From NCBI GenBank assembly GCA_021846285.1, contig JAJZCB010000005.1, forward strand, positions 1 through 64,000: a DNA stretch of 64,000 nucleotides. The letters run 5' to 3'. Position 1 is the stretch's first letter. Every line of letters starts with the position of its first letter. This DNA is from Bacillota bacterium (GTDB lineage Bacteria > Bacillota > Bacilli > Alicyclobacillales > SLC66). A program made the position numbers and the translations under genes. Below, one piece after another: positions 5,779 through 53,171 of the stretch. The notes under the pieces were generated by a model, which saw only the letters and a list, made by a program, of their open reading frames with translations, did not search any database and was not told the origin of the DNA.

Positions 5779-6659
5779 GCGGATATCGCTCCCTGACTGT
5801 TAACGGAGTCGCTTTGCACATATGGCAGAATCGCGGGGCCAGTGACGACGTGGTGCTTTTTTTGCACGGGTTTGCAGGGTGTGCTGAGGATTTCGCCGAT
5901 ATATTTCCCATGCTTTCCCGGCGGGCGATAGCGGCCGTCGACCTGCTCGGTCACGGCGGTTCTGACGCTCCGACAGACAGCGCCAGGTACGAAATGACGA
6001 ACATGGTTCTGGATCTGCGCGCGGTGTTGCTCACGCTTGGCGTTCGTCAAGCGGACGTGATCGGTTATTCGATGGGTGGACGCATCGCCCTTGCGCTGGC
6101 GGTCGCTTATCCGCGCCTGATCCGGACTTTGGTGCTGGAGAGCGCTTCACCGGGGCTTTCATCAGACTATGAACGTGCGGAACGGCGCAACAGTGATGAT
6201 GCTCTGGCAGGATGGATTGAATCGGAGGGAATGGAACGCTTCGTTGATTTTTGGGAGTCACAGCCGCTGTTTGCGTCGCAGACGAGTCTTGACCTGGACA
6301 TCAGAAGACGGCAGAGAATGGTCCGACTGGCACAACGACCCTATGGGCTGGGAGGCAGTTTGCGCGGCCATGGAACGGGCGCTCAGCCATCGCTGTGGGA
6401 GCATCTTTCGTCTGTTTCGGCGCCAGTTCTGGCAGTGTCGGGGGAACTCGACGCCAAGTTCACCCGCATTGGGTCCGCCATGACTCGCCTTTTACCTCAT
6501 GGCGCCCATGTGGTCGTCAAGGGCGCCGGGCACAACGTTCATCTGGAGCGACCGGCAGAGTTCGCCGCTTTGGTGAATGAGTTTTTGGATGCGCAGGGTC
6601 ACATCGACCCATCGAAAGCAGACTTGTTCCGGCGAGACCCCCTCATGGATTCAAAGTAA
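5775..6659 (+). CDS. menH: alpha/beta hydrolase, SHCHC synthase-like (MenH)
   Basis: Alpha/beta hydrolase expected to eliminate pyruvate from the MenD product. Visible are the oxyanion stretch LFLHGFAG, the nucleophile elbow GYSMGGRIAL and the catalytic His in GAGHNVHLERP. GTG 5775 overlaps the menD stop TGA, giving tight coupling; the longer ATG frame from 5730 would overlap menD needlessly. The last 17 bp overlap, tail to tail, the histidine kinase gene on the other strand. No menC or menA is seen in the window, so those steps must be encoded elsewhere. Confidence 0.88.
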   Translation: MSGYRSLTVNGVALHIWQNRGASDDVVLFLHGFAGCAEDFADIFPMLSRRAIAAVDLLGHGGSDAPTDSARYEMTNMVLDLRAVLLTLGVRQADVIGYSMGGRIALALAVAYPRLIRTLVLESASPGLSSDYERAERRNSDDALAGWIESEGMERFVDFWESQPLFASQTSLDLDIRRRQRMVRLAQRPYGLGGSLRGHGTGAQPSLWEHLSSVSAPVLAVSGELDAKFTRIGSAMTRLLPHGAHVVVKGAGHNVHLERPAEFAALVNEFLDAQGHIDPSKADLFRRDPLMDSK

Positions 6660-7920
6660 TGGTGACTGTTGTTCCCTTCCCCAGCGCGCTTTCCACCTGA
6701 ATGGAGCCTCCGTGTGCGTCCACGATCCACTTGGCGATGGACAGCCCGAGACCGCTCCCCTGGGTATGGCGCTGACGATTGGCGTCGCCCCGGACAAAAC
6801 GGTCAAATATCTTTGGCAATAGTTCAGGAGCAATACCAAACCCCGTGTCGGCGACTACGATTTTCGAGTGCAGCGTATCACACTCAAGGGACACGGTGAT
6901 TGACGCTCCCGCGTCGGAATAGCGTAGAGCGTTATCCATTAAAACGAGCAGCAGTTGCCGCAGTCTTGCCATGTCGCCGAGCGTCATGCAGGGGAAATGC
7001 GGTGTTAATGCCGTGACCGATTTGTCCTGGGCCAAGGCCATCGGGTTAATGGCTTCAACGGTCTCCACGACGAGTTTAGTCAGGTTTACACTGCGTTTGT
7101 CGATCAGGGGTTCGTGGGAATCAGCACGGGCGAGCGTCAGCAGATCCTCAATCAGGGAACCCGTGCGCACCAGTTCTTCATACGCGTTGCCCAGATAGCG
7201 GATCTCACTTTCGATGGTGTGATCCGGATGTTGCAGCAGGACTTCGAGGTTGGTCTTGATGATGGCCAGCGGTGTGCGCAACTCATGTGACGCGTCGGCC
7301 ACGAACTGCTGCTGGCGGCGCCAGGACGCAATGGTCGGCGCCAAACTGCGTGAAGCGAGCCACATGCCGACCGCTATGGTGAGGGCGAGAGCCGCCAGTC
7401 CTACTTCTGTCAGTGTCCAAAGCAGGTTGCCCAGAGTGGTGTCTGTCGGCCCTGTGGGTGTTGTGACTCGTATCAAATAATTCCCCCGTTGTGCGTGAAC
7501 GAGGGCATAGAAGGAGCGATAGGGAACGCCCAGGTCGTGCACTGTGACAAAATAACCGTTTGGATGGGCCACGGCCAAACTGTAAATATGCCAAACATCG
7601 ACGAAGGGATCTCCATCAATAAAAAAACTGGTCTTTGTTCCCGCCTCATTGACTAAACTCCACAGACTGTAGCCAATGCCCGAAATAGTTATATTCTGAC
7701 CGTTGGCTGGCTTAGTCTGATTGCGGATGTATGCATGAATAATTCGGGCAGCCGCTCCCTGTAACTGATTATCCAGGACATTGTACAGTTCATTGGTCAT
7801 CAGGCTGTACACTAACGACAGAAGGATGACCCATATTGTGAGCAGCGCACCTATGTTAATGCCAAACAGTTTTAGTCGCACATATAGAAAAGGGTCCCGT
7901 TTCTTTAAAATGGAGAACAA
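6643..7920 (-). CDS. sensor histidine kinase
   Basis: Membrane sensor of an OmpR-type two-component pair. A first membrane helix lies at about residues 20-42, an extracytoplasmic domain at 43-165 and a second helix at 167-190. Then come HisKA with FVADASHELRTPLAI (phosphorylated His about 212) and an HATPase domain with DNALRY, DTGFGIAPELLPKIFDRF and GSGLGLSIAKWIV. Translation starts at TTG 7920, 8 nt after GAGGGGG. The gene lies 24 bp downstream of its response regulator. No HAMP domain is obvious. The stimulus cannot be read from the sequence. Confidence 0.92.
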   Translation of the reverse strand: MFSILKKRDPFLYVRLKLFGINIGALLTIWVILLSLVYSLMTNELYNVLDNQLQGAAARIIHAYIRNQTKPANGQNITISGIGYSLWSLVNEAGTKTSFFIDGDPFVDVWHIYSLAVAHPNGYFVTVHDLGVPYRSFYALVHAQRGNYLIRVTTPTGPTDTTLGNLLWTLTEVGLAALALTIAVGMWLASRSLAPTIASWRRQQQFVADASHELRTPLAIIKTNLEVLLQHPDHTIESEIRYLGNAYEELVRTGSLIEDLLTLARADSHEPLIDKRSVNLTKLVVETVEAINPMALAQDKSVTALTPHFPCMTLGDMARLRQLLLVLMDNALRYSDAGASITVSLECDTLHSKIVVADTGFGIAPELLPKIFDRFVRGDANRQRHTQGSGLGLSIAKWIVDAHGGSIQVESALGKGTTVTITLNP

Positions 7921-46894: not shown

Positions 46895-47434
46895 ATGGGG
46901 GAGGAGAATATTTCCCGCCTGGTCGAAGGGGCTCCCGAAGCATGGGGCGACTTTGTGCATTGTCACAGCGATAGTCTTTTGCGGATGGCTGTTTTGCTCG
47001 TCGGCGACAGAGACTTGGCGCAAGACGCCCTTCAGGATGGCCTGCTTGCGGCCTACCGGGCGCGCCAGGGATTCCGGGGCGAGGCGCGGTTCTATACGTG
47101 GGTCACTGCGATTGTGATCAACGAATGCCGCAAGATCAACAGGCTTTCCGTGAAGCGTGAGCGCGCCGTCAGGATATCCGCCGCCGTGCCGGAACTGGCG
47201 CACCGCGAAGACACATCCGCATCCACCGAGTTTGGTTCTCTGTACAATGCGATAGCTTCCTTGGGGGAGCAGGAGCGTGAAGTCGTGACCCTATACTATT
47301 TCAATGACTGGAAGGTCTCTGCTATCGCGACTTTTCTCGGTCTCAAGGAAGGCACCGTAAAGAGTCATCTGGCGCGGGCTCGCAATCGGCTGCGCGGCAT
47401 CCTTCGGCGTATCGGGGAAGGAGACGATGAATGA
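46895..47434 (+). CDS. ECF-type RNA polymerase sigma factor
   Basis: Sigma-70-family factor of 179 aa. Region 2 is LLRMAVLLVGDRDLAQDALQDGLLAAYRA with FYTWVTAIVINECRKINR; region 4 is LGEQEREVVTLYYFNDWKVSAIATFLGLKEGTVKSHLARARNRLR. AAGGAGG lies 7 nt before ATG 46895. The stop overlaps the next gene (ATGA), which encodes a single-helix protein in the position of an anti-sigma factor. It would direct a small regulon, possibly including its own operon. Confidence 0.9.
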   Translation: MGEENISRLVEGAPEAWGDFVHCHSDSLLRMAVLLVGDRDLAQDALQDGLLAAYRARQGFRGEARFYTWVTAIVINECRKINRLSVKRERAVRISAAVPELAHREDTSASTEFGSLYNAIASLGEQEREVVTLYYFNDWKVSAIATFLGLKEGTVKSHLARARNRLRGILRRIGEGDDE

Positions 47435-47847
47435 TGCGCGGCGACGACACGGAAAACATGGACAATATGGAAATAGACCGAATCATCAGCGCTCGCCTTA
47501 AAGAGGAACTGGCCGAACTGTACGTCCGCGATGAATGGGCGTCTGAGATGATGAGACAGATGGTCGACGACGGCGTTGAACGAACCAGCGGTGCGGACGA
47601 AAGGTTATGCAACCCGGTTTCGCGGGCGCGAACCTGGCGGCGACGCTGTCAGAGCATACTCAATGCAGAACTTGAAATTCCGTTGCCAGTCTTCGTGACT
47701 GCGGGCGCCGCCGTTGTCGCAACTGCGCTCATTATCGCGACATCATGGCAGATGACGGCTGTCCCACCTTCTGTTCACATGTGGCGCGTCAGCGAATCGC
47801 ATCACGGCATGGCGGTGATCGTTCAGGAGGTGGCCATCAAGCTGTGA
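47431..47847 (+). CDS. putative membrane anti-sigma factor
   Basis: Protein of 138 aa with a charged cytoplasmic part (1-85), one membrane helix at about 88-107 (VFVTAGAAVVATALIIATSW) and a short outer tail. There is no clear zinc-binding anti-sigma HxxxCxxC motif. The assignment rests on size, topology and its overlap with the ECF sigma gene. It also overlaps the next gene by 4 bp (GTGA). Confidence 0.65.
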   Translation: MMRGDDTENMDNMEIDRIISARLKEELAELYVRDEWASEMMRQMVDDGVERTSGADERLCNPVSRARTWRRRCQSILNAELEIPLPVFVTAGAAVVATALIIATSWQMTAVPPSVHMWRVSESHHGMAVIVQEVAIKL

Positions 47848-49658
47848 GACGCACGATTCGCATTAAGATCAAATGGTTGCTGGCCGCTTGTCTGGCGCTA
47901 TTCGCGGTTATGGCCGCGCTTCTCATCGGTTCGCAGAATTGGGTGTGGTACTTCGGCACTCAGACACAACAGGTGCGAGCAGCCGTGTCCATGGCGCTGC
48001 GTTCTGGCCCCATTGGCGACGCGGCAGCCAACTCCCTGCTGCAGATGGTCAGTGAAAGCCTGGATCCAGGGAATCCCTTCGGATCCCCTTACACAGTGAT
48101 CGTGTCTGGGCGAGCGACCGCCGCTTCCTGGCCCACCCAAATCGGGTCGTTAAGTTTGACCCCGACTCTGTTTCGCAGAATTCTGATCGCGCTGGCGACA
48201 TCCCGTTCTGTTTCGTCTGTGATGCGCTTGCAAGCCCTCGACAACCTGGCCACGCTTGATGTGCAACGAGGTCGCCTAAAGGAGGCGCTCCTTCATTTGG
48301 ACTCTGTGATCAGACATCCGGTTGCGGCTCCTGCCGCCGGTGCGCCATGGATGACCACGACCAGCGTGCGGGCGCAGGCGTATGCGCAAATCGGCAATAT
48401 CGATCTGATCACCAATCAGTTGACCCATGCCCAGGCGGCCTTTACGCACGCCAACCACCTGAACGGAACGGGTCTCTCCTCCTATGAGGGCGCTGAACTC
48501 GCACAGCGGATAGAGATTCGCAGTCATCACCCGCAGCAGGCGGTGGAGATCAGGATGTCGGTGGGTGGGCAACCTGTGGCTGGCATCGGGGGATGGCTGT
48601 GGCCAGCGGCGGTTGCAGGCCATGAGCTGTCGACAGCGCCCATGACGACCTATATTGGCATGAGCAACGCAAAGGGTGTGCTGGAGATTCAGGGTGTGCC
48701 ACCGGGCCGCTATGTGTTGACCCTGCAAATTCCCTATCCACAAAATGCGGTCATGATCCCCCTGCACTCAGCGGCGAGTGACACGGTCACCGTTCATTCT
48801 CATGCGCTTACTGCGATCGACGTTCGATTTGCCCGGAAAATTCAGCGTGTGTCCGGCAGGGTGGAGGGCCAGGCGGTGCACCTGGCGTGGCGGCCGTATC
48901 CGGGAACGGCGTATTATCAACTCTCCTACGGGTCGACAGAGCGCGGCGGAGCCGGAACAACGGCTCCGATCAATGCACGCTTCGTTAACCCGCGCGCCGT
49001 GGTGTCCCTTCAGCAATTGGACGCCGACTGGTCAGGAGAGGTATTCACGCAACACGGCCCGGTTCCGTCAACGCTTCTCGGTCCATTCGCTGATGGTCGG
49101 CTGCATTGGAGCGTGCAGGCGTATGATTCGCGTGGTCGCATGATCTCGTCATCGAGTGTCAGTTTTGCGCCCGTGATGCAGATGTTCGGACCGGATCTCA
49201 GCATTGCGCTGCCAGCGGGCATTGTGCCGCATCCGCTGGTGGATCTGGTGGACCACAGGCGCTATGGCGCCGCGAAAACATTTTTGTGGCGGGCGTTGTA
49301 TCCGCAATTTGCGACTTGGCGTCATGGGAGCCCACACCAGAAACACACAATCGGAGCCGGGGAAACGTTGTATTTGCTGAGATATTTGATTCGGCTGCAA
49401 CTGCTGACTGGAACTGGGGCTAGGACAGTTGGCGGAACAGGGGCTGGAGCAAGTGCCGGAACCGTCGGAGGGAGTGTTCTTGCCGGCAGTGATCGTTCCA
49501 GGATACCGGGAGCGAGTGAGTTGTTGCAGTGGCTGGACGACATATCGCCGTACCATGAGAGCGGTTTATCCGTGCTTGCACAGCAGGGGTACAGCCGACA
49601 TACGGGCAAAAACAGGCACAGGAACCCTGGTATTGCCATTATAGAGAAGTTAAACTAA
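47844..49658 (+). CDS. large single-helix extracytoplasmic protein of the ECF operon
   Basis: Protein of about 604 aa. A membrane helix lies at about 11-29; everything else is outside. Residues 115-235 look like helical TPR-type repeats (ALDNLATLDVQRGRLKEALLHLDSV). Residues 240-330 resemble a carboxypeptidase-regulatory-like beta domain (GVLEIQGVPPGRYVLTLQ), followed by fibronectin-like strands, and near 530 a Gly/Thr/Ala-rich linker. GTG 47844 overlaps the upstream stop. It may be the sensor or output of the ECF system. No close family is recognised. Confidence 0.7.
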   Translation: MRRTIRIKIKWLLAACLALFAVMAALLIGSQNWVWYFGTQTQQVRAAVSMALRSGPIGDAAANSLLQMVSESLDPGNPFGSPYTVIVSGRATAASWPTQIGSLSLTPTLFRRILIALATSRSVSSVMRLQALDNLATLDVQRGRLKEALLHLDSVIRHPVAAPAAGAPWMTTTSVRAQAYAQIGNIDLITNQLTHAQAAFTHANHLNGTGLSSYEGAELAQRIEIRSHHPQQAVEIRMSVGGQPVAGIGGWLWPAAVAGHELSTAPMTTYIGMSNAKGVLEIQGVPPGRYVLTLQIPYPQNAVMIPLHSAASDTVTVHSHALTAIDVRFARKIQRVSGRVEGQAVHLAWRPYPGTAYYQLSYGSTERGGAGTTAPINARFVNPRAVVSLQQLDADWSGEVFTQHGPVPSTLLGPFADGRLHWSVQAYDSRGRMISSSSVSFAPVMQMFGPDLSIALPAGIVPHPLVDLVDHRRYGAAKTFLWRALYPQFATWRHGSPHQKHTIGAGETLYLLRYLIRLQLLTGTGARTVGGTGAGASAGTVGGSVLAGSDRSRIPGASELLQWLDDISPYHESGLSVLAQQGYSRHTGKNRHRNPGIAIIEKLN

Positions 49659-50093: not shown

Positions 50094-50420
50094 GTGACAG
50101 ATGATTTACACCAAGCCTGCTTAGAAGCTCTGCAGCGTATTCGTTGGCGATTTGAAAGGCAGTATCGCCAACAACAAAAACGGCAGATTGCATGGGATCA
50201 AGAATTAGAGCGTGGTGTCAGGTCGCCGGAGTTCGATGCCGTGGAATGGAATGTCTTACTGGATACTCTGACAGCCAGCGAACGGCGCATAGTGCTGGAC
50301 GTCGTCACTCACGGATACAGCGAGCGCGACGAAGCAGAACGCTTGGGTTGGACCTTGTCAAAGGTCCATCGTACGAAGGAACGCGCGTTGACAAAACTTA
50401 GAGGCATGCTCAATGAATAG
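50094..50420 (+). CDS. sigma region-4-like DNA-binding protein
   Basis: Protein of 108 aa. The N-terminal half is a basic helix (EALQRIRWRFERQYRQQQKR). The C-terminal half, LTASERRIVLDVVTHGYSERDEAERLGWTLSKVHRTKERALTKL, has the layout of sigma factor region 4 (the -35 binding helix-turn-helix). No region 2 is present. GGAGGG at 50081-50086 lies 7 nt before GTG 50094, which fixes the start. The stop overlaps the next gene by 8 bp. With that gene it resembles the two-part SigO/RsoA arrangement of Bacillus subtilis (inference). Confidence 0.75.
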   Translation: MTDDLHQACLEALQRIRWRFERQYRQQQKRQIAWDQELERGVRSPEFDAVEWNVLLDTLTASERRIVLDVVTHGYSERDEAERLGWTLSKVHRTKERALTKLRGMLNE

Positions 50421-50628
50421 CTCCCACGAGAAGGATTTCCTTCTTGCCCAAGAGCGAGATGCTGCCGCCATGCAACGACTGCTGGATTGGATCGATACGG
50501 ATATCAGGACGATGGCGCGGCAAATGAGTAGGCGAATTCAGATTCCCGCCCTTGAATTATATGGAGAACTGCGACAGGAATTCGTGCTTATGGTCATGAG
50601 ATCCGAGGTGGACTGGCGCCCGTTTTAA
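50413..50628 (+). CDS. small sigma region-2-like / HTH protein
   Basis: Protein of 71 aa. The pattern AAMQRLLDWIDTDIRTMARQM then LYGELRQEFVLMVMRSEVDW recalls the start of sigma region 2 (helix 1, then D/E-LRQE-x-L), which contacts the RNA polymerase clamp, but the promoter-melting part is missing. Small proteins of this kind pair with region-4-like proteins in RsoA-SigO and in Tn916-type elements. The overlap with the preceding gene points to coupled synthesis and partnership. Confidence 0.6.
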   Translation: MNSSHEKDFLLAQERDAAAMQRLLDWIDTDIRTMARQMSRRIQIPALELYGELRQEFVLMVMRSEVDWRPF

Positions 50629-50708
50629 GAAAGATAAACGGATGACCCGAAAAAAATAGCTTGTCATCTGACCTTTATAAGTGAAGGGGTTAAAAGGGGG
50701 TGGGAACG

Positions 50709-50921
50709 ATGCAAGACCAGCACAAATGGATCACCGTGAATAACACCCTGCACGTGTTGATTCGGAGTTACGTGGAATTATCAGACCTTGTTGCTCAAGA
50801 TGATGTGCGTCAAGAGCTGGATAAACTGGCCATTGAAGCACATAGGCAACTATGGGTAGTGAAGAAAATTTATGAGGATCAATACGGAAAAGAACTCTGT
50901 CCGTGTATGTCAGCAAACTAA
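50709..50921 (+). CDS. small helical protein of unknown function
   Basis: Protein of 70 aa starting at ATG 50709, with AGGGGGTG 8 nt upstream. It is predicted to be almost fully helical (VLIRSYVELSDLVAQDD ... LAIEAHRQLWVVKKIYEDQ) and ends in CPCMSAN with a Cys-Pro-Cys. No membrane segment or signal peptide is seen. Upstream, an inverted repeat GATGAC/GTCATC (50642-50676 region) may be regulatory. It lies 20 bp before the next gene. No family is recognised. Confidence 0.65.
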   Translation: MQDQHKWITVNNTLHVLIRSYVELSDLVAQDDVRQELDKLAIEAHRQLWVVKKIYEDQYGKELCPCMSAN

Positions 50922-50941
50922 ACTGAGGAGGGCATTTACCT

Positions 50942-51439
50942 ATGACACTCGCAGCAGATCAAATTGCATTTTATGGTGCATCACAGAAGGACTACACGAG
51001 CGCAATGGCGGTCGCTTCATCACTCGGAGTTCCGTACGCCAATGTAACAGGAAGCTTTAATAAGGCGGCTCAGTGGGTGGCAAACGGTGACTTCATGGTG
51101 ATTGCTATTGGCGGTCCCGCGGAGACGGCATTATTTTGGAATCCTTGCGGGTGGAGCACTACAGCCTACAGTTTAAGTCAATACCCGGCGTGTTCTACGC
51201 CCTTCAACTACTACAACTTTCCATATGATGGGGCGATTGAGGCGAATTACTTTGAAAGCGCGGCTGGCATCTATACACTAGAATCCATGCAATTGGCTTT
51301 GATGTTGGGTTATTACGCTATTAATGGTGTATACCCGCCAAACACATGCGCGTTGCCTACCGTATATGAGCAATCCGGTACATGCAGCACCGGCGATTGC
51401 AATGGTTCGGCAACCAATTCTTGCCCCGTGACGTCCTGA
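50942..51439 (+). CDS. cysteine-containing protein of unknown function
   Basis: Protein of 165 aa with GAGGAGGG about 10 nt before the ATG. There is no signal peptide. The first part (DQIAFYGASQKDYTSAMAVA ... GDFMVIAIGGPAETALFWNPCGW) looks like an alternating alpha/beta fold; the last 30 residues are low in charge and hold five of the seven cysteines (CALP, GTCSTGDCNG, SCPV). It is followed by the hydrolase-like gene with 33 bp between. The Cys content suggests it works outside the cell or in an oxidising place, by an export route that is not visible. Confidence 0.65.
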   Translation: MTLAADQIAFYGASQKDYTSAMAVASSLGVPYANVTGSFNKAAQWVANGDFMVIAIGGPAETALFWNPCGWSTTAYSLSQYPACSTPFNYYNFPYDGAIEANYFESAAGIYTLESMQLALMLGYYAINGVYPPNTCALPTVYEQSGTCSTGDCNGSATNSCPVTS

Positions 51440-51472
51440 TAATTTGCACCATAAATTAAGGAGGCGCTAAAT

Positions 51473-52093
51473 TTGACTATAACGTTTGTTGACTTGGCGA
51501 ATGATGGCAACAACACTCAGTCAACCTGGATTCCCTATGCTTTACCGTACGCCAAAACACTGTCAGCGGCAGCGCAAATTCCCATAAACCTGATTTTGGC
51601 AGAATGGATTGCGGAAGGGTCATACCTAAACACCAGTTCAGGTGCCGTGTGTAACAATCCGGGTAATGCTGACTACGGGCCGTACTGTACCGGATATTTG
51701 TCACCAGAGAATTGCCAATCCTACTCTGGCGAATACGGGGCGCCTGACGCCCAGATTGGAGCGTGTCGACAAGGTGACATTTTGAACAACGCGTATCCGG
51801 AGATTGCGCAGGCCGCTGCGCAATCGACTCTCACGAGTGGTGGCCAAACATTGTATAACTGGGCACAGAGTAACGGGTATGGCGGGTTAAAGAATCAGAC
51901 CTACAACGCCGCATATCAATGGGGAGCAGGCGGAACCTGCGGGGTATGGGCGGGAAGCCATTATTGTATTGGCTACACCAACTGTGTCAATGGAGTATGT
52001 CAATGTCCGACCGCTCCGTATGGGTCTTATCTCATTGAATTGATCTATGATGACAGTCTTACGGGTTACGATTACATTGAAAGTTGTCCGTAA
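51473..52093 (+). CDS. cysteine-rich protein resembling a cell-wall hydrolase
   Basis: Protein of 206 aa from TTG 51473, with AAGGAGG about 8 nt upstream. The segment AAQIPINLILAEWIAEGSYLNTSS ... NNPGNADYGPYC follows the layout of glucosaminidase/lysozyme-like enzymes (LA-WI-EG/S ... NNPGN), with the Glu of AEG as a candidate catalytic residue. Ten or so cysteines are spread through the rest (YCTG, ENCQ, GACRQ, GTCGV, HYCIG, NCVNGVCQCP). No signal peptide is present. It ends the unit; a terminator follows at 52114. Confidence 0.6.
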   Translation: MTITFVDLANDGNNTQSTWIPYALPYAKTLSAAAQIPINLILAEWIAEGSYLNTSSGAVCNNPGNADYGPYCTGYLSPENCQSYSGEYGAPDAQIGACRQGDILNNAYPEIAQAAAQSTLTSGGQTLYNWAQSNGYGGLKNQTYNAAYQWGAGGTCGVWAGSHYCIGYTNCVNGVCQCPTAPYGSYLIELIYDDSLTGYDYIESCP

Positions 52094-52113
52094 GAAGCTC
52101 AATTCCTGACTGA

Positions 52114-52136
52114 CCCCACCAGTTGGTGGGGGTTTA
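52114..52136 (+). terminator. terminator of the split-sigma unit
   Basis: Perfect 8-bp stem CCCCACCA-GT-TGGTGGGG followed by GTTTAAAG, 20 bp after the stop of the hydrolase-like gene. Confidence 0.75.
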
Positions 52137-52148
52137 AAGTGTTAATTC

Positions 52149-52721
52149 TTATAGCTGACCTGGCACAAAGGAATTCAATACACGTTCTAGGATAGGTTTA
52201 TACTTGGACGCCTCACTAACTTTAAGCCCATAGCTTAAAACGTAATAGAAATGTTTACCAACGATCGTCTTAGTACAAAAAATATCTTTTCGCGAATGAT
52301 TGGTATAACCATATACAGTAAACCAATTCGCGCCTCTTTCGTAATGAGTTATAATGGGGCGAAGGGATTGCTTTTCCCATGTTGGCGTCTCTAAATATTG
52401 ATGTAGCCCTGTACTTACGGTAAGGTTCAGAACATTGTAGGATCCGTACACGGTAAACGAGGCATTTCTATCCTTTGAGACCCACGTCCTACCGTCATTA
52501 TCAGTTGGTGGGCGTTCCATTAGAAATGATTTAGGGTATTCAACGCGAAAGTGAAAACGTGAATTAGTGTAAGAAGCATAAGATTTACTTGCTATTTGAT
52601 GCACATTTGACTTTGGCACGAACTCCTTACTCGTCGAGAGAGGGGCACCGCAGCCGGTGATCATGAACCCCAGTGAGGAAAGAAGAATAATGATTTTTAT
52701 GTTGTGCTGTATTTTCATCAT
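52149..52721 (-). CDS. putative lipoprotein
   Basis: Protein of 190 aa. The N-terminus (MMKIQHNIKIIILLSSLGF) is a lipoprotein signal peptide with the lipobox MITGC. The mature part, with FRVEYPKSFLMERPPTDNDG and a repeated strand pattern ending YKPILERVLNSFVPG, resembles the PsbP/DUF1795-like secreted fold, but only loosely. GGGGAG lies 5-8 nt before ATG 52721. The gene is AT-richer than most of the window, like the adjacent split-sigma unit, which suggests recent transfer. Confidence 0.75.
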   Translation of the reverse strand: MMKIQHNIKIIILLSSLGFMITGCGAPLSTSKEFVPKSNVHQIASKSYASYTNSRFHFRVEYPKSFLMERPPTDNDGRTWVSKDRNASFTVYGSYNVLNLTVSTGLHQYLETPTWEKQSLRPIITHYERGANWFTVYGYTNHSRKDIFCTKTIVGKHFYYVLSYGLKVSEASKYKPILERVLNSFVPGQL

Positions 52722-52812
52722 GTCATCTCCCCTAATAACAAACATGAACGGTCATTGTAATTGTATCTCCAAATTAGACGATTGATATCCTGAAGAGGTT
52801 ACAGGTGTCTGT

Positions 52813-53044
52813 ATGTTGTTTACGGCCAGCACGAACAAGGCAGAGGCGTATAATGGCTTTTCGAAATGGTTGTTCTTTGGAGGAGAAGGCGTGATCGCCC
52901 GCGAAGATGTGGCTGCGTTGAGTCCGTATCTCACGCACCATGTGGAAGCGCTTTGGCGACTATGTGATGGACTTAGAGAGGACGCCTGAGCCTTTGGACA
53001 CCGCACAACATTTGAATCTCCTGGATCCATTGGGAGAAAATTAG
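52813..53044 (+). pseudogene. Tn3-family transposase remnant (C-terminus)
   Basis: The first frame reads TNKAEAYNGFSKWLFFGGEGVIA, the conserved Tn3 transposase motif around the catalytic Glu, then jumps to REDVAALSPYLTHHVE. The normal 40-50 residues between are missing. After a frameshift near 52944 another frame continues RFGDYVMDLERTPEP and ends at 53044, as in intact Tn3 transposases. It is thus a 3' fragment with an internal deletion and a frameshift. No terminal inverted repeat is recognised nearby. Confidence 0.78.
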
Positions 53045-53171
53045 TACCCTATGGCCTGTTTTTGCACGTATGTCGGCTGTACCACCAGCATGCGCGCATG
53101 CACAGTGTCCGACGTCAGCAATGAGCTGCGCGAGTCGTGTCAACTCGCCAAAAAATCAAACCGAACACTGT

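Follow-up and report, generated by a model that had tools for sequence, protein, structure and literature searches.

A mobile cassette that couples a predicted two-part sigma factor to exchangeable peptidoglycan hydrolase-lipoprotein modules in acid-habitat Firmicutes: a candidate effector-immunity system

INTRODUCTION

To our knowledge, SigO/RsoA of Bacillus subtilis is the only two-subunit sigma factor that is commonly cited. It is encoded as a large region-4 subunit followed by a region-2 subunit of about 70 to 80 amino acids (PMC8103513).

Polymorphic toxin systems (CdiA, Rhs, LXG) have a constant N-terminal part and a toxin domain that is swapped together with its immunity gene, and they include arrays and polyimmunity proteins (PMC3482391). 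Lipoprotein immunity is exceptional in the survey of these systems, where it is represented by one family, Imm65 (PMC3482391). In Clostridium perfringens, the plasmid-borne UviA-UviB-Bcn5 system combines a holin and a signal-less secreted antibacterial protein with a dedicated sigma factor; holin-dependent, non-lytic export of signal-less proteins, including that of this system, has been reviewed (PMC9527704).

Here, we analyzed a stretch of 64,000 nucleotides, referred to as the window, from a Bacillota bacterium of the order Alicyclobacillales (GCA_021846285.1, contig JAJZCB010000005.1, positions 1 to 64,000). An earlier note had described in it a split sigma factor-like gene pair heading a five-gene unit, and had offered a self-regulated secreted lytic or contact system as a possible function. 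Sequence comparison establishes a conserved six-gene cassette with homology to a split sigma factor, three kinds of wall-hydrolase domain, joint exchange of enzyme and lipoprotein, and a mobile setting.

RESULTS

Six genes lie between Tn3-like inverted repeats

The five reading frames described previously, each with a ribosome site and separated by short spacers, were found at or very near the positions given for them, as was the 8-bp overlap of the first two (Table 1). They are more than chance frames, because, among 59 genomes from the order, 35 encode homologues of the 165-aa gene 4 product and HMM searches recover relatives of the 71-aa gene 2 product in other genomes with E values down to 8e-31. 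None of the five proteins has a visible signal peptide at its N terminus, as had been remarked for the products of genes 3 to 5. The terminator placed 3' of gene 5 corresponds to a G+C-rich hairpin at about 52110-52136, but this hairpin is weak and does not appear in the list from a consensus scan. A sixth, convergent gene encoding a lipoprotein had been overlooked.

Table 1. Positions of the cassette genes and associated elements in the window
Feature	Position	Strand	Description
Gene 1	50094..50420	+	Sigma subunit, regions 2.3-2.4 and 4 (by homology), 108 aa, GTG start
Gene 2	50413..50628	+	Sigma subunit, regions 2.1-2.2 (by homology), 71 aa; 8-bp overlap with gene 1
Gene 3	50709..50921	+	Small helical protein, 70 aa
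Gene 4	50942..51439	+	N-terminal domain of the hydrolase family, stand-alone, 165 aa
Gene 5	51473..52093	+	Predicted glucosaminidase-like peptidoglycan hydrolase domain, 206 aa, TTG start
Gene 6	52149..52745	-	Lipoprotein, 198 aa, lipobox ITGC; proposed immunity protein
Left terminal inverted repeat, Tn3-like	49588..49617	+	30 nt, GGTACAGCCGACATACGGGCAAAAACAGGC, 97% complementary to right arm
Right terminal inverted repeat	53054..53083	-	30 nt, partner of left arm
Tn3-family transposase remnant	52813..52986	+	C terminus; Pfam DDE_Tnp_Tn3, E 5.5e-5, profile 299-325 of 389
Spacer hairpin between sigma pair and downstream genes	50639..50670	+	Predicted stem CGGATGAC/GTCATCTG, weak in window

The cassette has a G+C content of 45 to 51%, against 55 to 60% on both flanks, in agreement with the AT-richness reported before. 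What had been called transposon debris could be specified as a pair of 30-nt inverted repeats, whose two arms are the only matches to this sequence in the entire 3.9-Mb genome, and a fragment of a Tn3 transposase just inside the right arm. All six genes lie between the repeats. Given these repeats and the transposase piece around a stretch of lower G+C content, we regard the six genes as passengers on a Tn3-like element that has decayed. Near the related cassettes at L075/L143 and L116, Tn3 transposase genes are complete. At the latter locus, the cassette is enclosed by a perfect 112-nt inverted repeat (1651-1762 and 7071-7182); the 137-kb contig, from genome G050, is probably a plasmid.

Two observations concern the left side of the window unit. 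A 637-aa open reading frame (47745-49658) extends across the left inverted repeat, so that the element may lie inserted in the 3' end of this frame and have changed its C terminus. Just upstream, at 46895-47847, an ECF sigma gene is followed by a putative anti-sigma gene that overlaps it; this sigma factor is one-piece and unrelated.

Genes 1 and 2 resemble a split sigma factor

The product of gene 1 matched Pfam Sigma70_r4/r4_2 (E 5e-5) and positions 61-164 of the 165 positions of the sigma70-ECF model TIGR02937 (E 1e-5). In two relatives, the sigma70-ECF match begins at position 44-54 and runs to the model end, and in the orthologue at L116 (contig C2 of G050) it covers 49-163 of 165 at E 5.5e-16, above the curated cut-off. 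From these spans, the larger subunit carries regions 2.3-2.4 and 4. Gene 2 itself gave nothing convincing in Pfam, and its assignment to region 2 is taken from its family: relatives on the plasmid of Alicyclobacillus sp. TC (E 6e-4), at L142 (7.7e-7), and at L139 (a split frame, 1.7e-10) match HTH_16, a domain with which sigma-like proteins begin. Together, the span of the larger subunit and the HTH_16 matches of the smaller one place the break in the sigma factor, by homology, between regions 2.2 and 2.3; compared with a one-piece sigma factor, the two parts are encoded in reverse order. When the subunits were joined in canonical order, the match of a TC pair widened to positions 10-165 and rose from 36.1 to 40.0 bits, while the window pair gained almost nothing.

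The comparison with SigO/RsoA drawn in the earlier note is supported, in that a large region-4 subunit and a small region-2 subunit are encoded in that order. By analogy, the two halves would function together as one sigma factor. No family named for SigO/RsoA was matched in NCBIfam, and several differences separate the two. Whereas the cassettes carry wall hydrolases, the known SigO/RsoA regulon consists of oxdC-yvrL, yvrJ, and its own operon. Going by the title of a 2016 study by Xue, a region 2.3-like part reportedly resides in RsoA, the small subunit, whereas the cassettes have it in the large one. Finally, SigO is a protein of 22.5 kDa (PMC10141391), compared with 108 to 130 aa for the large subunit of the cassettes.

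Genes 4 and 5 are the two halves of a fusion protein

In most relatives, the domain encoded by gene 4 is fused to a catalytic domain, so that genes 4 and 5, described before as independent genes, correspond to two halves of one fusion protein. Carriers of the N-terminal domain are Alicyclobacillaceae, Sulfobacillus, Peptococcaceae bacterium CEB3, and metagenome-assembled genomes from acid habitats, and just 2 other genomes among approximately 400 sampled from the phylum have it. AlphaFold2 predicted an alpha/beta fold for gene 4 (pLDDT 92, pTM 0.88), for which Foldseek returned nothing significant from the PDB or viral models (best PDB E value, 0.73). The domain has no Pfam match, and neither a trafficking domain nor a secretion system was recognized. 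Its interpretation as cell-wall-binding repeats was considered and dropped, as neither Pfam nor the fold search backs it. It has a confidently predicted fold with no solved counterpart.

Three kinds of catalytic domain follow the N-terminal domain in different cassettes: glucosaminidase (PF01832, E 8e-7), Rv2525c-like (PF08924, E values to 2e-17), and GH25-like (PF01183, E 0.002). Gene 5 shares 39 to 40% identity with the corresponding domains of the enzymes in TC cassettes 1 and 4. An AlphaFold model computed with three sequences (pLDDT 34.5) was discarded in favor of profile comparison, which matched gene 5 to the cassette glucosaminidases (probability 96, E 1.6e-9) and aligned its residue E48 with the catalytic Glu of the lysozyme fold; residues conserved within the family are retained. 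The earlier designation of gene 5 as glucosaminidase-like is thereby supported. Wall hydrolases with these catalytic domains are known, but those of the cassettes lack a signal peptide, are either fused to or paired with a new N-terminal domain, and stand under a putative split sigma factor.

The genome that contains the window encodes the N-terminal domain a second time, in a divergent gene that precedes a lysozyme-like one (G000:C37, 47316-48270; L007, 1492-2439). This pair has no sigma genes and is kept in two genomes of the genus.

The cassette recurs across acid-habitat Firmicutes

Plasmid p1 of Alicyclobacillus sp. TC carries five cassettes in tandem. Each comprises a small helical gene, the large and small sigma genes, and a hydrolase gene, beyond which lies a convergent gene. 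The small sigma subunit of cassettes 2 and 4 is present though unannotated (L010, 11319-11549; L085, 6524-6754). Cassettes 1 and 3 have two further genes, for a glutaredoxin and for the N-terminal domain on its own. A glutaredoxin gene lies directly 3' of the sigma pair at L010 (7716-7958 and 14161-14403) and L117 (285-512), and it may be tied to the cysteine-rich effectors.

Similar units, complete or partial, were detected in G058 (a complete chromosome), G044, G045, G050, G031, G015, G016, and G056, and a degenerate one in CEB3; the relatives belong to Alicyclobacillus, Sulfobacillus, and other Firmicutes of acid habitats. Homologues of gene 3 lie next to the sigma pair in G058 and on the TC plasmid; in G012, their neighbor is the N-terminal domain gene. 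The earlier note had asked whether the gene order is conserved in other genomes. The set of genes is: it was found in about a dozen genomes, and a single plasmid has five copies. The precise five-gene order was met only in the window, where the helical gene follows the sigma pair; elsewhere this gene comes first.

No description of such a system was found in a library of open-access papers. No PADLOC model was matched by any window protein, and an anti-phage defense role was set aside on this result. A phage origin was likewise rejected, as phage records and viral contigs contained nothing that matched the N-terminal domain or gene 5.

Enzyme domain and lipoprotein are exchanged as one module

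DNA of TC cassettes 1 and 3 is 100% identical over about 2 kb and falls to chance level from the junction between the N-terminal domain and the enzyme onward. In cassettes whose enzyme has no N-terminal domain, the conserved spacer extends up to the enzyme start codon. On the other side, the lipoprotein genes are 90 to 100% identical from the promoter region to the end of the signal peptide, and their identity sinks to chance level after approximately 60 to 75 nt of coding sequence, a boundary that also holds between TC and G045. These comparisons establish, at the level of DNA, that the enzyme domain and the mature lipoprotein have been swapped as one module between fixed flanks.

Similarities of enzyme and lipoprotein were correlated across cassettes in Mantel tests (r 0.69 with 16 cassettes; r 0.63, p 5e-5, with 19). 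Similarity of the large sigma subunit, usable in 10 cassettes, showed no correlation with that of the enzyme (r 0.03) or the lipoprotein (r 0.06), and controlling for it left the correlation between enzyme and lipoprotein in place (partial r 0.60, p 0.001). The glucosaminidases of four genomes pair with a single lipoprotein family, and lipoproteins with a beta-propeller (BNR/sortilin-like) accompany one GH25-like type in Alicyclobacillaceae and CEB3 alike. Gene 6 is homologous to lipoproteins encoded beside related enzymes in TC cassette 4 (z 9.6) and at L060 (z 15.0); the L060 lipoprotein has two domains and in this resembles the polyimmunity proteins (PMC3482391).

Because adjacency alone also yields co-inheritance, the covariation supports an effector-immunity relation and does not prove it. 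The sharp boundaries make simple linkage a less likely source, with no implication of binding. Three observations argue against this relation: TC cassette 1 combines an enzyme of the gene 5 type with a different lipoprotein; four visible cassettes (L116, L055, L071, and L061) lack an adjacent lipoprotein gene; and the lipoprotein gene is convergent and outside the operon, unlike usual immunity genes.

A holin-like gene accompanies some units

A holin-like membrane protein of 92 to 100 aa, matching PHROG 1299 "holin" with E values of 7e-6 to 4e-5, is encoded in or beside the unit in TC, G015, G016, G020, and G056. It is not exclusive to the cassette, since homologues lie between dnaJ and prmA in some genomes. 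The window has no holin-like gene, and its genome contains no homologue of the TC holin at E 1e-3.

Spacers contain hairpins in relatives

Hairpins are conserved between the sigma and effector genes (e.g., GAGGGGCAAAACGAAAGCCCCTC) in TC and at L110, L111, L113, L116, and L117. They are strong in relatives, with z scores of about -3.5 in two TC spacers, and could represent an attenuator or RNA control element. The window hairpin was no better than shuffled sequences (z -0.3) and was dropped as a feature of the window itself. A shared promoter motif, for which the regions 5' of 50094, 50709, and 50942 had been singled out, did not materialize: the sigma-70 promoter scan performed like shuffles, and the spacers showed only hairpins and no common promoter.

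No riboswitch was found in the window cassette. CEB3 has two c-di-GMP-I riboswitches at L073 (6034-6123 and 703-786; Rfam scores of 78.5 and 64.6 bits). The one at 6034-6123 precedes the genes for a degenerate sigma pair (small subunit) and the N-terminal domain, which suggests that c-di-GMP controls the CEB3 unit.

DISCUSSION

We consider the unit to be a mobile cassette for polymorphic peptidoglycan-hydrolase effectors, equipped with its own immunity protein and a two-subunit sigma factor, and place the probability of this reading at roughly 0.6. Genes 1 and 2, by homology forming one ECF-like sigma factor, would direct RNA polymerase to their own operon. The operon would yield cysteine-rich, signal-less proteins composed of the constant N-terminal domain and a variable domain predicted to cut the wall, which, depending on the cassette, is glucosaminidase, Rv2525c-like, or GH25-like and in the window is encoded with its partner as two separate genes. 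Export may proceed through the holin-like protein of the same unit, as encoded in some relatives, or by way of lysis of some cells in the population. Once released, the enzyme would cut the wall of neighbors, while the lipoprotein, located on the outer face of the producer's membrane, would block the matching enzyme; lipoproteins of the gene 6 type probably shield the producer. The idea of a secreted lytic system that had been proposed for this locus we count as supported, with its self-regulation, its route of export, and any contact dependence being putative.

The cassette can be likened to a polymorphic effector-immunity system that has a dedicated sigma factor of the bacteriocin type, and it answers in part to either definition. 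As in polymorphic toxin systems, it has a constant N-terminal part, arrays, and an adjacent gene that changes together with the toxin domain, the protection itself being proposed from this pattern. In contrast to those systems, the putative immunity gene is convergent rather than downstream in the operon, and the proteins are small and have no known secretion system or trafficking domain. The cassettes share with UviA-UviB-Bcn5 a plasmid-borne setting in some relatives, a putative dedicated sigma factor, and signal-less products, and a holin-like gene accompanies some units though not that of the window. That system differs in its one-piece sigma factor, its single bacteriocin type, and its separate endolysin, and it has no exchangeable enzyme-lipoprotein module.

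Among the alternatives, a sporulation module fares best, though we consider it unlikely. The proteins would be signal-less, cysteine-rich mother-cell hydrolases acting in coat, cortex, or lysis, and the mobile copies would have gained their own sigma factor. Coat hydrolases often have no signal peptide, and this reading would account for the missing ones here. Most Alicyclobacillus genomes have one fused copy, unaccompanied by sigma genes, in the vicinity of sigK and a GDSL lipase gene; such copies are near-universal in the genus and, looking sporulation-linked, count against the effector reading. About 90 to 110 bp upstream of the fused copy, the motif GCATA[CG][AG]AT, which resembles sigma-E/K -10 elements, is present in 9 of the 19 genomes, compared with a frequency of 0.16% in shuffled sequence; because the genomes are related, these are not nine independent events, and no clear -35 element was found. 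All known carriers belong to spore-forming groups. Yet sporulation leaves unexplained the exchange of enzyme with lipoprotein, the tandem arrays, the holin-like gene, and the dedicated sigma factor. From the fused copies near sigK and their upstream motif, the ancestral role may be in sporulation, with the cassettes a later specialization.

Less probable still is a holin-endolysin module that opens the producer's own wall for cargo release, DNA or plasmid transfer, or programmed lysis, with the lipoprotein limiting the damage and neighbors left unharmed. Signal-less wall hydrolases, a holin-like gene in some units, documented holin-dependent non-lytic export (PMC9527704), and the location of cassettes on plasmids and Tn3-like elements all fit such a module. 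A self-directed module, however, gives no reason for enzymes to diversify with matching lipoproteins, or for a single plasmid to carry five different ones. That the window copy is a functionless passenger of a decayed transposon is suggested by its fragmentary transposase and by relatives in CEB3 and G044 with broken sigma genes or truncated enzyme genes, but is very improbable given its intact five frames and lipoprotein gene, its ribosome sites, and the family-conserved residues of gene 5.

The effector-immunity reading can be extended, more tentatively and at somewhat less than even odds, to an undescribed class of inter-bacterial weapon in acidophilic Firmicutes, in which Tn3- and plasmid-borne polymorphic wall hydrolases would be targeted by the new N-terminal domain, exported without a signal peptide by a holin, controlled by a dedicated two-subunit sigma factor, and countered by lipoprotein immunity. 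The cassettes constitute a family of predicted two-subunit sigma pairs tied to exchangeable effector modules, and the need for both partners of such a sigma factor could serve as a safety lock for lethal cargo. If confirmed, they would represent a new kind of bacterial weapon-and-shield set and a polymorphic effector-immunity system in extreme acidophiles, whose defined exchange module makes its specificity directly testable.
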